DNA from: Clostridiales bacterium DTU023 | GTDB taxonomy: Bacteria; Bacillota; Clostridia; Saccharofermentanales; DTU023 | Length of the DNA: 38,083 bases | NCBI GenBank assembly: GCA_001512945.1 | Contig: LFTF01000127.1 | Span: 1-38,083 of the forward strand | Reading direction: 5' to 3' | Shown here: positions 30,841 to 38,083 of the stretch, one piece after another | How positions within the stretch are numbered: position 1 is the stretch's first letter | Layout: each line of letters begins with the position of its first letter | Made by a program: the position numbers and the translations under genes | The notes under the pieces: model-generated | The model's database searches: none | The model's input: the letters and a program-made list of their open reading frames with translations, nothing else | Told to the model about the DNA's origin: nothing

Positions 30841-32205
30841 TTATCTCCTGCCTCTTGTACGGTTATTTTGCTTCTCGTGAAGCTTTTTCAACTTCATAAG
30901 CAAGATTATGGATCCAACAACGATGGCTGCAATGATTACCACCAGGCCTAACGCGGCAAGCGCCAGGATGACGGGGTCGGTCTGATTGAGCCCCCCTGCA
31001 AAAAACAAATCGTCTTCATTTTTATAAGGCTCTGACTCGAGAGAGCCCGGTTCGGTGACTACCGGGTCTCCGGGAGAAAGGGGTTGTGCGGGGTCGGCTT
31101 GGCCAGACGGTGTCACAGGGGCAAGCAGATCTCTGCCTTCTTTCACCGGAACGCCTTCCTGGCGTGCCGCCTCCTCTAAGATGGCACGAACAGGCAACGC
31201 CCTTGCAAGCCAAGGGTTCTCGCTCATTTCAATCGATGTTATGCCCATCGCCGCGCAAATAAAATGACGATCGTCAGTTGTGACGCCCGATCCGACTAGA
31301 CATTTTCCTGCCTGCGGTGTCGTGCCGGTTTTGACGCCTGTATACCGCTCATAATACTCTGACTGCATGAAGTCGGCTCCGTAGAGCACCAGCGCATTTG
31401 AGTTGCCCATCGTTCCCCACCACGAATTCTCATGCTCATCGGTCGTTGGCATGCGATAGTACCGCATCGAACATATATGAGCAATCAATGGGTTCTTCAA
31501 CGCTTCTGCCGCAATTAGGGCGAGATCATGCGTCGTGGTGTAATGACTCCCGTCCGCCTCATCAAAACCGGCAGGATTTGTGAAATGCGTTCCTGTCGCA
31601 CCCAATTCGACGGCTCGCTGATTCATCCGCCCCACAAAAAGTTCTTGAGAATTAGTCGCGTCATTGTATCCACCCGGATCAATGGCACCATACGAACCAC
31701 CATAGTTTTGAGCGATCACGCGCGCCACATCATTCGCTGAAGCGAGTAGCAACGCTGCCAGACCGTCAACCGTGCGTATCTGGTCGTCGGTCTTTAGCTC
31801 TTTGAGCCTCGCAGAGTTTGGGTCAAGAAAAACGAGCGATTCATCCGAGACGGTGAGCATACGTTCCGGGTCGAAGTTTTCGTCTTCAACAAGAATGAGA
31901 GCTGTCATAATCTTGGTCGTACTGGCATTGGCACGTTTTTTATCAGGATTTTGCGCAATTATGATTTTTTTTGTAACCGCATCAATTACACAATAGGAAT
32001 CCACATTAACTTCATCATAGGCGGGCCATCCAAGATGATCGACCGCGTGTACCTGCATACGATTGACGCCGCCTGTGAAGATTAGTGCCACAATCAACAC
32101 GGCCGTAGCAACAAAAAGGCGCCGGCGCGCTTTTAAATTGGCATTGTCTCTGCCTGCATAATCCCCTATATCATTGTTTCTTTTGTGTAGCTTGGTGTTC
32201 TTCAA
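30841..32205 (-). CDS. dacA: D-alanyl-D-alanine carboxypeptidase (class A PBP5-like)
   Basis: SxxK (ASTTKIM), SxN (LASANDVA), KTG (GVKTGTTPQAG); signal/TM N-terminus and C-terminal TM. TTG start at 32205 proposed: GGAG 7 nt upstream and TTGA overlap with the preceding stop. Confidence 0.88.
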   Translation of the reverse strand: MKNTKLHKRNNDIGDYAGRDNANLKARRRLFVATAVLIVALIFTGGVNRMQVHAVDHLGWPAYDEVNVDSYCVIDAVTKKIIIAQNPDKKRANASTTKIMTALILVEDENFDPERMLTVSDESLVFLDPNSARLKELKTDDQIRTVDGLAALLLASANDVARVIAQNYGGSYGAIDPGGYNDATNSQELFVGRMNQRAVELGATGTHFTNPAGFDEADGSHYTTTHDLALIAAEALKNPLIAHICSMRYYRMPTTDEHENSWWGTMGNSNALVLYGADFMQSEYYERYTGVKTGTTPQAGKCLVGSGVTTDDRHFICAAMGITSIEMSENPWLARALPVRAILEEAARQEGVPVKEGRDLLAPVTPSGQADPAQPLSPGDPVVTEPGSLESEPYKNEDDLFFAGGLNQTDPVILALAALGLVVIIAAIVVGSIILLMKLKKLHEKQNNRTRGRR

Positions 32206-33710
32206 TTTGCTTCTCCTATCTCCTGCTCGGGCATCTTCGGGCAAACACCGTTTAGCTGATTCATAACTGCTTCCTTGAGTGTGCCCGTCAAAACAGGAAT
32301 CGTATTGTCCTGCGCGTTATCAAAGGAACGTTCGAGTGAGGGCCAAATCTTTGCCCCCGATTCGACCGCAAGTAGTCGGATGACCTCGGGTCGCCCCGCC
32401 CCTGCCTCCTGAGCGTTTAGAAAAACGCGCCCGCACAGGTAATGGTCAAGCAGCGGAGAGCGAGCCAATATGAAACATGTGTTGGCATCTGTATTCTTCT
32501 TTGACCGCTGTTCCCAACAGGCAATAGCCTCTGCTGTCCCCCGATCAACAAGGTAGTCGGCCCGGTCGTACACAGACCGCATAACCCTCTGGCACCCCTT
32601 AAAATCGCAGCTTTCGAACACAAGCGAATGGTTCAACAGCTCAATCTCCGTATCGGATAAGCAAGTCTTCCCCGATCGTTCAATATCGTCCAGAACTTGC
32701 GTGAGGCGCGTCACATCGTGGCCAAAGACTTCAAAAAGCAATCGCTCCAGATTGACCGGCGAAGCGTCATCTTTATTGGCACGCTTTCCCTTCTTTGTCT
32801 CCTGCACATATCTGCCGGTACGTAAAAGATCTGTCATCGATGAAGATTCCCCTTCCCCTACGAAAACAGTTCCGACCGGCAACTGAAGGCTGCTCGCATA
32901 GACAAGACCGGCAAGAACATCAAGATGACCTCTAGAGACAACAAAATCAACGTCTCTGATATTATCTGTGTGCCGGGCGATGTCAGCGATAACTGCCGCC
33001 GCCATTGCCCCTGCCGTCAACACCCCAACCAAATGACCAGGTCCGACAAAAAGCGGTTCAAATCCGAGTCCGTTGAGTGTGTGCTCAAACGATGAATCGG
33101 CTGCCAGCTTCGTGAGTTCAAGATAACGTTCATCAAAAGATTCCGGATACGCACAAATGATTTCGTCTTGGCGAGCAAAACCGGCAAGCTCATATCGCCG
33201 GGACCCTCTGTCGGGAACGAACGTTAACTTCTGAATACCTGAGGCAAGACGTGAACTGGCCACGGCAAAGTCATCTGTATGGACGTTCAAGAGGATAGGC
33301 CGATATGATCGGTTCCGCTTGGCTAGTGCCCGAGGCAACAAAACATTCATGATCGCGGCGCTTATATCATCCAGACTGCCTGTCGGGAGATCGTCAGCGT
33401 TCAAAATGAAGTAGTCCGGAAAATAGGAGTTGAGCTGTGTAAATGGTAGTTCAAGCGATTCGGCATCCTCCTCGAGCATCCGGAACGCTTCTCCCAGAAT
33501 GGATCCCCATTCATCGAGCGAAAATTCCGGCAAATATCTTTGGAAAAACATCGCCATGACCTGTTGAGAGGAAAGAGAGGTCAATGTGGAAAGATCCAAG
33601 GGCTCCGGCAAAGATGCGGGGATAAACAGCCCGCCCGTCAGCGATAGTCCGCGGATAATGGCATCTATGCCGCTGACGGAGTCTCCTCCCCGAGTACTAA
33701 AATAATTCAT
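32202..33710 (-). CDS. Threonine synthase-like protein, probable catalytically inactive paralog
   Basis: N-terminal MNYFSTRGGDSVSGIDAIIRGLSLTGGLFIPASLP and C-terminal VNLERLLFEVFGHD are ThrC-like, but PLP-lysine and TSGDTG-type motifs are missing. Confidence 0.78.
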   Translation of the reverse strand: MNYFSTRGGDSVSGIDAIIRGLSLTGGLFIPASLPEPLDLSTLTSLSSQQVMAMFFQRYLPEFSLDEWGSILGEAFRMLEEDAESLELPFTQLNSYFPDYFILNADDLPTGSLDDISAAIMNVLLPRALAKRNRSYRPILLNVHTDDFAVASSRLASGIQKLTFVPDRGSRRYELAGFARQDEIICAYPESFDERYLELTKLAADSSFEHTLNGLGFEPLFVGPGHLVGVLTAGAMAAAVIADIARHTDNIRDVDFVVSRGHLDVLAGLVYASSLQLPVGTVFVGEGESSSMTDLLRTGRYVQETKKGKRANKDDASPVNLERLLFEVFGHDVTRLTQVLDDIERSGKTCLSDTEIELLNHSLVFESCDFKGCQRVMRSVYDRADYLVDRGTAEAIACWEQRSKKNTDANTCFILARSPLLDHYLCGRVFLNAQEAGAGRPEVIRLLAVESGAKIWPSLERSFDNAQDNTIPVLTGTLKEAVMNQLNGVCPKMPEQEIGEAN

Positions 33711-33778: not shown

Positions 33779-34612
33779 CTATTTTCCGTCTATTGGAGGA
33801 AATGTCTTGCGGTACATATCTAAAATTTCGGCCACCGATTCATTTTCAGATTCTCGTTCTTCCAGGATTTTTTCCATCCATTCGAGCCGCTCACGTCGCG
33901 CTTCATTCTTTAATATTATCGGCCTGATGGCGAAGTAGAAAATCAGGAAAAGAAGTGAAGCGGTGATGACCGCGAGTGTCAATCCTTGAATAAGTCGGAC
34001 AACATTCCCCTGGGTTCGTGATGTATCAGAAGTCTTGTTCTGAGCCATTCGATAGGCTTCTTCTTGCTCGCGCCTGCCTGCCATCTGGATCCGGCCTGTT
34101 CCATCTTCATCTGCTGCACGCTGCAAGATGCCACTTTTTGCCATACTCGCGCGCACAGGCATCAATACGTGTTCATTTCTTTTTTTAGAGCTGTCTCGAG
34201 CTTGCTCTCGGATCCGCTCCTCACGAGCTGCCATCCGGCATTTATCAACTGTGGTTGCGAGTGCTGAATCAGGCGATGCGAGTAAGACCTTATCAAACTG
34301 CTCTTCTGCTTCGCGGTACCGTCTCTCTTTGGCGAGCAGAACCCCATAGAGTGATGCTGCTTGTGAAAATTGCGGCCATCCCGAGGTTAGTTTCTCGAGC
34401 GCAATCATCGCCACATCATTGTGCCCCGTGCCAGCCTGTTCCAACGCACGGTTATACACAGCCAAGATACGTTCTCGCTCACCTTCGGACACAGGCAACT
34501 CTTCAGGCAGCTCTTTGAGAGCCTTGTACGTTTCAAGTACACGGTCCCAGTTGAGCGTCTCCGCTTTGTTCCTGGCCGGAAGCGCTGATCGATTGGTCTG
34601 ATTATGTCGCAA
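33779..34612 (-). CDS. TPR-like repeat protein with single C-terminal TM helix
   Basis: ASLYGVLLAKERRYREAEEQFDKVLLASPDSALA (TPR-like); TM LTLAVITASLLFLIFYFAI. Confidence 0.65.
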   Translation of the reverse strand: MRHNQTNRSALPARNKAETLNWDRVLETYKALKELPEELPVSEGERERILAVYNRALEQAGTGHNDVAMIALEKLTSGWPQFSQAASLYGVLLAKERRYREAEEQFDKVLLASPDSALATTVDKCRMAAREERIREQARDSSKKRNEHVLMPVRASMAKSGILQRAADEDGTGRIQMAGRREQEEAYRMAQNKTSDTSRTQGNVVRLIQGLTLAVITASLLFLIFYFAIRPIILKNEARRERLEWMEKILEERESENESVAEILDMYRKTFPPIDGK

Positions 34613-34761: not shown

Positions 34762-36642
34762 CTAACCGCTTGACTTATCTAGCTTCCACTTGCGAACGAA
34801 AGGCCTAACTACACCTGCAAGGTAAAGTGAGCCGCACACACAAATCATTGCGCCGTTCTTTTCGGCCAGGTTCAACGCATGCATAATCGCTTCATCAGTG
34901 TCACGTTCCGGTATCACCGGAGTCGACTGACCGTCGTCCCTTATCACACCCTCCGCCTCAGAGGCAAGGTCCACTGCCGAAAGGCGACGCTCGCCCGGCG
35001 GCTCTGTGCAAACAACCGCCGAAATATCGTAAGGTGCCGACTCAAGCAATGCTTCAAGCATACCGCGATGGTCCTTGTCTTTAAATAAACCGATCACGAA
35101 TATGACACTCTGACCGTCCGTGAGTCGCCCGAGCGCTTCCCTGAGTCCCAGACAACCCTGTACATTATGTGCGCCGTCGAGAAGGATCAAAGGCTCTCGT
35201 GACAGGACTTCCATCCGAGCAGGCCAGATGCAGGCCGCAATGCCACGATCTATCGCTTGTTCGTCGGCCATCTCTGTCATTCCTGTCGCAGCCGCTGCCA
35301 TGAGGGCATAGATCGGCTGGTAAGGGCCGAGCAGTTTGGTCTTGTAAATTTTGTCGGTTGACAGAGCCTTAAACGACTGGCCCACCCATCCGTAATCAAG
35401 GGTGACAAAGTCATCGTATCCGTAGTAATGAAGCGGTGACGAAAGTTCCGCGCATCGCGCATCGAGCACCTGCCGGGCAATCCGAGCATCGGCTTCAGAG
35501 AGAAGCGCATCCTCCGGCGCATAGGCAATCACGGGACAGCCCTGCTTGATAATGCCTGCCTTCTCGCCCATGATCTCCCGCATTGTATTCCCCAGCCGAT
35601 CCATGTGATCAAAGCCGGGAGCGCCAATCAAGCATGCCAGCGGCTTCTCCAAAATATTGGTCGAATCGAGACGACCACCGAGGCCCGTTTCGAGAACAAC
35701 TACATCGCAGCCTTGCTCCTTGAACCAGAGAAATGCGAGTGCCGTCATCAAGTCGAATTGGGTTGGCTCTTCACCTCCGCGTGACGCAATCGCTTGGGCG
35801 GCTTCTTCGACGCGTTTCATCAAACGTACGACATCATCATCGGGAATCTCTCCCGTCGCCTGATCCACGTCATATCGTGCGAGATCGGCTGCACCGTCAA
35901 GCACACGGATTCTCTCATTGAAACGCTCGAGATATGGCGAGGTATACCAACCTGTTTTGTGACCGGCCTCGCATAAAATATGCGTCAAATAGCTGCTGAT
36001 CGACCCTTTTCCATTAGTTCCCGCAATGTGAAAAGCCGGATACGATCGCCATGGGTCACCTAACAGTCGATAGAGCTCGACCACACGTCCACAGCTGTCA
36101 CCTGTTCCAAACGCATCGGCCTCCGAGATTGTGTGCAGTGCCTGGTCAAGACTGGCCGACGTATTCGCCGCTTCAGAGGGATTCTCTGCAACAGCAGATG
36201 ATGCACCATTGTTTTTAAAAACATAAAATTTCCCTACAATGCGATTCCCAAGTACAACAAATGTAAGTGCAACCAATTTAGCGAGATCAAGCATATCGGG
36301 GATAATTACCGTTGTATTCTGCAATACATGCCTGAAAAAATAGATGCCCGCGTACTCAAATACAAAGGATATTGCCAGCCTCGTCCCCACGAAACGGAAA
36401 AATTCTTCCTTTACGTCCGATGTTGAGCGGAAGACCCAGATCCGATTGAGCACATAAGCCGCCAGTACCGAAAGGATAATGGCAGGTACGTCGGAATAGT
36501 ACCATTTTTCAAGCCCCAACCAACGGTTCATTAACATGTAGACCACCAGATTGACAACAGTGGCGACTACACCGGAAACAAAATAGCGTAGGAATTCCTT
36601 TGTAAAAAAAAGATCGATCAGATAATATTTTGCTTTTCTCAT
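34762..36642 (-). CDS. folC: Fusion protein: N-terminal GtrA-like membrane domain + C-terminal folylpolyglutamate/dihydrofolate synthase
   Basis: aa 1-~145 GtrA-like (FLRYFVSGVVATVVNLVVYMLMNRW, YVLNRIWVFRS, LGNRIVGKFYVFK); then FolC motifs FHIAGTNGKGSISSYL, SPYLERFNERI, LETGLGGRLDSTN, ILLDGAHNVQG. Confidence 0.88.
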   Translation of the reverse strand: MRKAKYYLIDLFFTKEFLRYFVSGVVATVVNLVVYMLMNRWLGLEKWYYSDVPAIILSVLAAYVLNRIWVFRSTSDVKEEFFRFVGTRLAISFVFEYAGIYFFRHVLQNTTVIIPDMLDLAKLVALTFVVLGNRIVGKFYVFKNNGASSAVAENPSEAANTSASLDQALHTISEADAFGTGDSCGRVVELYRLLGDPWRSYPAFHIAGTNGKGSISSYLTHILCEAGHKTGWYTSPYLERFNERIRVLDGAADLARYDVDQATGEIPDDDVVRLMKRVEEAAQAIASRGGEEPTQFDLMTALAFLWFKEQGCDVVVLETGLGGRLDSTNILEKPLACLIGAPGFDHMDRLGNTMREIMGEKAGIIKQGCPVIAYAPEDALLSEADARIARQVLDARCAELSSPLHYYGYDDFVTLDYGWVGQSFKALSTDKIYKTKLLGPYQPIYALMAAAATGMTEMADEQAIDRGIAACIWPARMEVLSREPLILLDGAHNVQGCLGLREALGRLTDGQSVIFVIGLFKDKDHRGMLEALLESAPYDISAVVCTEPPGERRLSAVDLASEAEGVIRDDGQSTPVIPERDTDEAIMHALNLAEKNGAMICVCGSLYLAGVVRPFVRKWKLDKSSG

Positions 36643-38083
36643 AGTTCGTCTCGGTCAGACGGATCATCACGTCCGGCTCTTCTTTGTCTGAACTGCCGTA
36701 TGCCCGACTCATCGGGACGCGATTCATGAACAGCGTCTTTGTCTTCATGTTTTCGGAGAGTCTCGTCGAGTGAACGCCATCCGCTTTCAAGGTCCTCCGT
36801 TCCCTCGTCAGAATCTACCGGCCGATCATCGTCTTCCCGTTTCGCGACCGCAATCCCACCTGTGACACCTGTCATCAGCTCTGGTGTTTGGGTGCTTGAC
36901 TCCTCCGAGAGATCCACAATGCTAGAGCCCTCTTGAGTTGATTGAGACTGCGTTTTCCGTTCTTCATCCATGGGTTCTTCTTGAAGATCATAATCTTCGT
37001 CATGAAAATCGGCAAGCGTCAACTCGGGTTCGTGCTTGATGACACGCCGTATACGGGCAACCAACCAAACACCCGAAGCGATCACAATAATGAGAACCGC
37101 GATTGCGGCGACCAGAACACTTATCGGGATACGGCGACCAAAGAGTGTGACCGTGTTCTCTGCGACTAAAGTTTCCGTAACTGCAGGCTGCTCTGTTTTC
37201 TCAGATTCTGTCATCGCCGGTTCTGTCGGTTCTGTAGGCACGGGCGGTATGTCTTCTAGGCCCAACTCCAGATAACTCCCCGCGACGGGGACAAGCCAGA
37301 GATCAGCCCGGATAAGCGAATCGAGCTCATGATCATACAGGTACATCATTTTATCTTCGGCATCATTCATCCTGAGCGCGACAAGATAAAGATCACCAGG
37401 AACGGCAACGGAAACTCCCTGCCAAAGATCGTCCCTGGCAGGTTCGTCTAACGAATCATCACCTTCGTAGGTTTTCCAGTCGGGCAAGGTCATACCGGGT
37501 GTAACTTTCGAGCGGAGTTCCTCGTAAGCGGACTTGGTAAAGTAATAACCTTTGACCGGCCGGTAGGCTGGAACGTCGTTGCCGCGCACTGACAGAGTCG
37601 TCAGTTCAAATCCGTCCGGCACGGCTTGCTCCGACAAGACGGCAAAGGTGAAATAGCGCGATGACCACTCCGACCGATAAAAAGGAACAAAAACGCCTGC
37701 CTGGGCGTCGGCATAGTAGAAACGTGCCGGCAGGGTCTCATCGGACAGCCAGTAGAGCGTATAGGGCAATGTATTCGACTCATAGCCGGTCAACTGTTTG
37801 CCCTCCCATTCGACCTCCTTGGGTCGGAATGATTCCGGAATCGCGCCATCGGATGGGCTCGTCTCAGGAATGGACAGCATGACCCCGTCATATCGTTTCC
37901 CAATCGATGCCTGTGCCGGAAAAGTCGGTCGCGTCTCTGACGGAATCGTGCTCACGGTAGAGACAGAAGAGGTGGGCTTGGTGGTGGTTGCTTTGGTTGT
38001 TGTTTTCGCGGTTGTTGGTTGGGCGGTTGTGGTGGTTGTTACAGGCGGGTCCGTAAGGGTAAGGTTCAAAACGGCGCCTGTCG
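36639..38083 (-). CDS. Thr-rich, single-TM surface protein (5'-truncated at window edge)
   Basis: Frame stays open to the window end (TGAVLNLTLTDPPVTTTTTAQPTTAKTTTKATTTKPTSS...); TM ISVLVAAIAVLIIVIASGVWLVARI; acidic cytoplasmic tail. The listed start at 38069 is a TTG and probably not the true start. Confidence 0.75.
   Translation of the reverse strand, partial: TGAVLNLTLTDPPVTTTTTAQPTTAKTTTKATTTKPTSSVSTVSTIPSETRPTFPAQASIGKRYDGVMLSIPETSPSDGAIPESFRPKEVEWEGKQLTGYESNTLPYTLYWLSDETLPARFYYADAQAGVFVPFYRSEWSSRYFTFAVLSEQAVPDGFELTTLSVRGNDVPAYRPVKGYYFTKSAYEELRSKVTPGMTLPDWKTYEGDDSLDEPARDDLWQGVSVAVPGDLYLVALRMNDAEDKMMYLYDHELDSLIRADLWLVPVAGSYLELGLEDIPPVPTEPTEPAMTESEKTEQPAVTETLVAENTVTLFGRRIPISVLVAAIAVLIIVIASGVWLVARIRRVIKHEPELTLADFHDEDYDLQEEPMDEERKTQSQSTQEGSSIVDLSEESSTQTPELMTGVTGGIAVAKREDDDRPVDSDEGTEDLESGWRSLDETLRKHEDKDAVHESRPDESGIRQFRQRRAGRDDPSDRDEL
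37965..38045 (-). repeat. Low-complexity Thr/Lys/Pro-rich linker-coding repeat
   Basis: TTTTTAQPTTAKTTTKATTTKPTSSVST encoded by (ACC/ACA/ACT)-rich DNA. Confidence 0.8.

Follow-up and report, generated by a model that had tools for sequence, protein, structure and literature searches.

A gtrA-folC gene fusion derived from an adjacent gene pair in a Mageeibacillus-like genus of uncultured Clostridia

The fused gene and its neighbours

The window analysed here is the whole 38,083-nucleotide stretch of contig LFTF01000127.1 (Clostridiales bacterium DTU023). It carries on the minus strand a gene of 626 codons (34762..36642) that begins with an ATG at 36642, ends with a stop codon finishing at 34762, and has no internal stops. 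The 626-aa product consists of an N-terminal GtrA domain, a short interdomain stretch, and a FolC domain. The GtrA domain (residues 19-142; 36217..36588, minus strand) matched PF04138 (GtrA_DPMS_TM) with 51.2 bits against a cut-off of 26.1, over positions 1-117 of the 117-position profile. The FolC domain (residues 186-613; 34804..36087, minus strand) matched TIGR01499 (folC) with 282.5 bits against a cut-off of 162.65, over positions 3-397 of the 400-position model; Mur_ligase_M and Mur_ligase_C also scored above their cut-offs. The ATP-binding P-loop GTNGKGS (residues 208-214; 36001..36021, minus strand) was invariant or nearly so in alignments. When the FolC half was aligned with L. casei folylpolyglutamate synthase (FPGS), the motifs GTNGKGS, TSPYL..ERI, EKAGIIK, WPAR and DGAHN were all found. 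An earlier, sequence-only reading had described one uninterrupted 626-codon ORF encoding GtrA and a full FolC with GTNGKGS, and the profile scores and the frame agree with it.

Hydropathy analysis revealed four hydrophobic segments in the GtrA half, at residues 20-38, 52-70, 89-107 and 112-130. AlphaFold modelled this half as four long helices at low confidence, and the FolC half confidently (pLDDT mostly above 90). Both outcomes agree with the four-TM GtrA-like domain described earlier. Residues 143-185 (36088..36216, minus strand) comprise a variable linker and the first FolC helix; the short linker quoted in the sequence-only reading corresponds to residues 144-167.

The neighbouring genes are encoded on the same strand. 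Upstream, and overlapping the fusion by 4 bases, lies a gene cut by the contig end (36639..38083, minus strand); its product is a Thr-rich surface protein that has a single TM segment at the C-terminus. Downstream lies a gene for a TPR-like protein with one C-terminal TM segment (33779..34612, minus strand); folC has the same neighbour in further families of the order. It is followed by a gene for a threonine-synthase-like protein (32202-33710, minus strand), whose best solved match was 8g1y (E 1.4e-19).

Spread of the gene pair and origin of the fusion

A relatives set of 59 genomes, spanning four families of the order, was examined; in 52 of them gtrA was adjacent or fused to folC, counting G009, in which the two are split by a contig end. 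The other seven genomes (G003, G008, G012, G029, G032, G050 and G054) had no complete folC match. In the two-gene state, gtrA directly precedes folC on the same strand, and the genes mostly overlap or lie within about 130 bases of each other. This pair agrees with the fusion in its two domains, in their order and strand, and in the neighbouring genes; however, the pair makes two proteins and the fusion makes one. For a class-wide test, regions upstream of folC were fetched and searched directly for gtrA in 36 genomes from 36 other families of the class. gtrA was found in none of the 35 families for which upstream sequence was available, and the same search detected gtrA before folC in all nine genomes of family f2 to which it was applied. 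Because the pair occurs throughout the relatives and is absent from 35 other families, it is an old arrangement and, within our sample, specific to the order.

The sequence-only reading had suggested a search of other genomes for the same architecture. This search recovered the fused frame in G004 and G013 and, across a contig end, in G009. The GtrA-FolC frame is continuous in three species assemblies: the window, G004 (locus L006; 65% identity to the window) and G013 (L007/L035; 62%). In G009 (L010 and L106) a contig break interrupts the gene. The FolC frame opens in the final residues of GtrA where one contig ends, and the corresponding GtrA stands at the end of another; this layout reads in frame as a fusion from which a short piece is unsequenced. 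A FolC tree of 33 sequences placed these four in a single clade (support 100/98) surrounded by unfused relatives. The fusion is a derived state that arose from the adjacent pair in the common ancestor of a single clade within a Mageeibacillus-like genus of uncultured Clostridia. Separate genes in close relatives, which had been named beforehand as a sign of error, do occur; however, they reflect the ancestral state rather than an error, because the fused state is monophyletic and derived and the start codon of folC has been lost.

The loss is visible at the junction. FolC of the nearest two-gene relatives starts with MNIDEAL... or MGIDEAL..., and the aligned window sequence is SLDQAL.... No in-frame ATG, GTG or TTG is present in the window from the end of GtrA to residue 191, which lies inside FolC. 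The G004 junction likewise has none, and that of G013 retains one GTG and one ATG. The ancestral folC start codon is lost in the window and in G004. Between G004 and G009, dN/dS was 0.081 for GtrA and 0.106 for FolC; these values are rough because dS is ~1.1, and they are similar to those of unfused relatives. Both halves are under purifying selection, i.e., both are being kept. A chance ORF was ruled out by the family scores and the dN/dS values.

The junction also bears on the alternative that survives best, in which an internal start or cleavage of the fused ORF yields two proteins and FolC is soluble as in the relatives. The relatives do produce two proteins from adjacent genes, and in G013 the ATG and GTG near the ancestral start might permit a separate FolC. 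However, the lack of an in-frame ATG, GTG or TTG at the window and G004 junctions argues against an internal start, and we consider the alternative as a whole, cleavage included, unlikely.

Among 188 genomes of the order that were searched, G351 (family f2, genus g200) also encodes GtrA and FolC in one frame, of 731 aa (L111:1401-3596). In its congeners G350 and G352, gtrA and folC are separate genes that overlap in different frames, and the G351 junction lacks their ATG. G351 is an apparent second, independent fusion in another family, represented by one assembly. The frames of 965-968 aa around FolC in G452 and G453 were not counted as fusions, since GtrA is not matched in the frame of FolC and their upstream reading is unlikely. 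In family f4, the GtrA encoded beside folC (L029:919-1848; L114, G047) is longer at the N-terminus by ~170 residues, which include hydrophobic stretches.

Function of the two halves

In Listeria GtcA, conservation among homologues exceeds 99% at eight residues, and substitutions at five of these alter teichoic acid glycosylation (PMC7389260). Fusion residues A62, N66, V70, F71, F84, R88, K122 and N133 match GtcA A65, N69, V73, F74, F91, R95, K121 and N132, respectively, the matching being based on motif spacing rather than on direct alignment with GtcA. All eight are nearly invariant across the gtrA-folC pairs. Because these residues are kept, the GtrA half is unlikely to be a degenerate anchor and is probably functional. 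The full PF04138 profile, the four predicted helices and the eight residues are common to the fusion and the GtrA/DPMS family, which includes Listeria GtcA and mycobacterial Rv3789; however, the partner of GtrA here, in the pair as in the fusion, is folC in place of a glycosyltransferase. The role of GtrA proteins is itself disputed, the two proposals being a flippase for lipid-linked sugars and a recruiter of partner proteins (PMC7389260). The other GtrA of the window genome, on contig C15, is encoded in a separate frame of 173 aa.

FolC is normally a soluble enzyme. In the GtrA half of the fusion, basic residues occur at the N-terminus, in the loop between TM2 and TM3, and following TM4. From this pattern and the positive-inside rule we infer that both ends of GtrA, and hence FolC, are cytoplasmic. 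FolC is plausibly held on the cytoplasmic face of the membrane. The sequence-only reading had offered two possibilities, a membrane-localised FolC or a Mur-ligase-like domain acting on a cell-wall or lipid-linked substrate. The first fits the anatomy of the protein (four predicted helices, the charge pattern, and a C-terminal cytosolic ATP-using enzyme), with localisation as a prediction; the second is not supported, as described below.

The fusion is the sole folC above cut-off in the window genome (a MAG 86% complete), and no second standalone folC, which the sequence-only reading had proposed to look for, was detected there. Dihydropteroate synthase (folP) was found in none of the 14 genomes of the genus, a result obtained with incomplete MAGs such as that of the window yet consistent over all 14; the same search detected it in 13 of 14 control genomes. 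Formate-tetrahydrofolate ligase (FTHFS) was present in all 14 genus genomes, and DHFR in 11, including the window genome. As the only folC of its genome, in a genus that has FTHFS and DHFR but no folP, the fusion is most likely a folylpolyglutamate synthase of folate salvage. The folate importer FolT gave only sub-threshold matches in the genus genomes; because it fell below cut-off in the control genomes likewise, its absence says little. A tie between the gene pair and folate salvage was not supported, the pair being found in folP-positive and folP-negative genomes alike among the 59 relatives. Two genomes of genus g3 contain, besides the gtrA-linked folC, a further FolC match adjacent to folP (G015:C1:35080-36051 and G034:C91:596-1678). 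A split of labour, with a dihydrofolate synthase on the one hand and the gtrA-linked enzyme on the other, would fit this arrangement.

Another reading is that the GtrA half is involved in taking up folate, the fusion coupling import to trapping by polyglutamylation. The missing folP, the want of any FolT match above cut-off, the conservation of the pair across the order, and the apparent fusion in a second family (G351) can all be read in this sense. However, the pair also occurs in genomes of the order that have folP, the residues typical of the sugar-lipid protein GtcA are retained in the GtrA half, and the FolT model failed in the control genomes too; we therefore regard a role in uptake as quite improbable. 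The same low expectation applies to a broader version, in which GtrA throughout the order presents or moves folate, or a compound resembling it, at the membrane and FolC adds glutamates as it arrives; the two would form a unit for vectorial trapping, fused on more than one occasion.

Another alternative is that the FolC-like domain works on a lipid-linked or cell-wall substrate delivered by GtrA. Mur ligases have the same fold, GtrA proteins have been associated with prenyl-phosphate sugars, and neighbouring genes encode surface and cell-wall proteins. However, TIGR01499 scored far above its cut-off, whereas the MurE model gave only 41.7 bits against a cut-off of 257.3. In fold comparison the best matches were FPGS structures (E 2.5e-32 for 2vor), with MurE far behind (E 2.2e-15), and the closest solved structures by sequence were likewise folylpolyglutamate synthases. 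The fusion is also the genome's only folC, and folate-dependent enzymes are present. Family scores, fold and genome content thus contradict a cell-wall or lipid-linked substrate and make it highly improbable. On these sequence and structure comparisons, the FolC half is most likely an ordinary folylpolyglutamate synthase for salvaged folate. The full domain and the motifs GTNGKGS, EKAGIIK, WPAR and DGAHN are common to the fusion and known FolC proteins (TIGR01499; 2vor, 1jbw, 1w78). The solved members stand alone; in contrast, the fusion adds an N-terminal four-helix membrane domain and its host genus lacks folP.

Proposed explanation and further observations

The explanation that we favour, and consider likely as a whole, is that an adjacent gene pair became fused into one frame, that the product is an ordinary FPGS at the membrane, and that GtrA keeps the activity of its family. 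Loss of the stop codon of the ancestral gtrA and of the folC start created the single reading frame. The N-terminal GtrA would be embedded in the cytoplasmic membrane and have both its termini in the cytoplasm, which would leave FolC on the cytoplasmic face. There it would glutamylate salvaged folate, which would then be retained in the cell; salvaged folate is proposed because dihydropteroate synthase was not found in the genus. GtrA would retain its activity as a flippase or recruiter for prenyl-phosphate sugars, perhaps for the surface protein encoded upstream. The fusion would create no new reaction; it would give one polypeptide two jobs, or fix the ratio of the two activities. That a sequencing or assembly error deleted a stop has a negligible probability, since close relatives do carry two genes at the locus but the continuous frame is common to three species assemblies, a fourth agrees in frame, all four group together in the tree, and folC has lost its start codon.

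No report of a GtrA-FolC fusion was found among the open-access papers searched. The conserved GtrA-FolC architecture is apparently new for FolC and seemingly unreported. The locus provides a clean case of a fusion that arose from an adjacent pair and whose phylogenetic position can be determined; sister species still have the two-gene ancestral state. An order-wide pair with one secure and one apparent fusion also raises the question of whether GtrA proteins have partners beyond glycan synthesis.

Two neighbouring genes gave further observations. Full-length homologues of the Thr-rich upstream protein, in G004 and at L036 (Clostridiaceae MAG, same genus), have a cohesin domain. Cohesin-type, Thr-rich, membrane-anchored proteins are encoded beside gtrA-folC in the window (36639-38083, minus strand), at L108:5209-6963 and at L035:1193-3379. 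The gene before the cohesin-type surface protein of G013 encodes a dockerin-bearing secreted protein; the two are possibly a cohesin-dockerin pair outside the classical cellulosome. One might speculate from gene order that GtrA serves the upstream surface protein, whose Thr-rich stretches would suit O-glycosylation, and that FolC is an attached passenger.

In its alignment, the threonine-synthase-like protein lacks the catalytic PLP lysine: IAFKDMA stands opposite GSLDDIS. At this site its homologues have GNLADLS (G004) and GSLSDIS (G013). Judged by these residues, the protein looks like a conserved pseudoenzyme.
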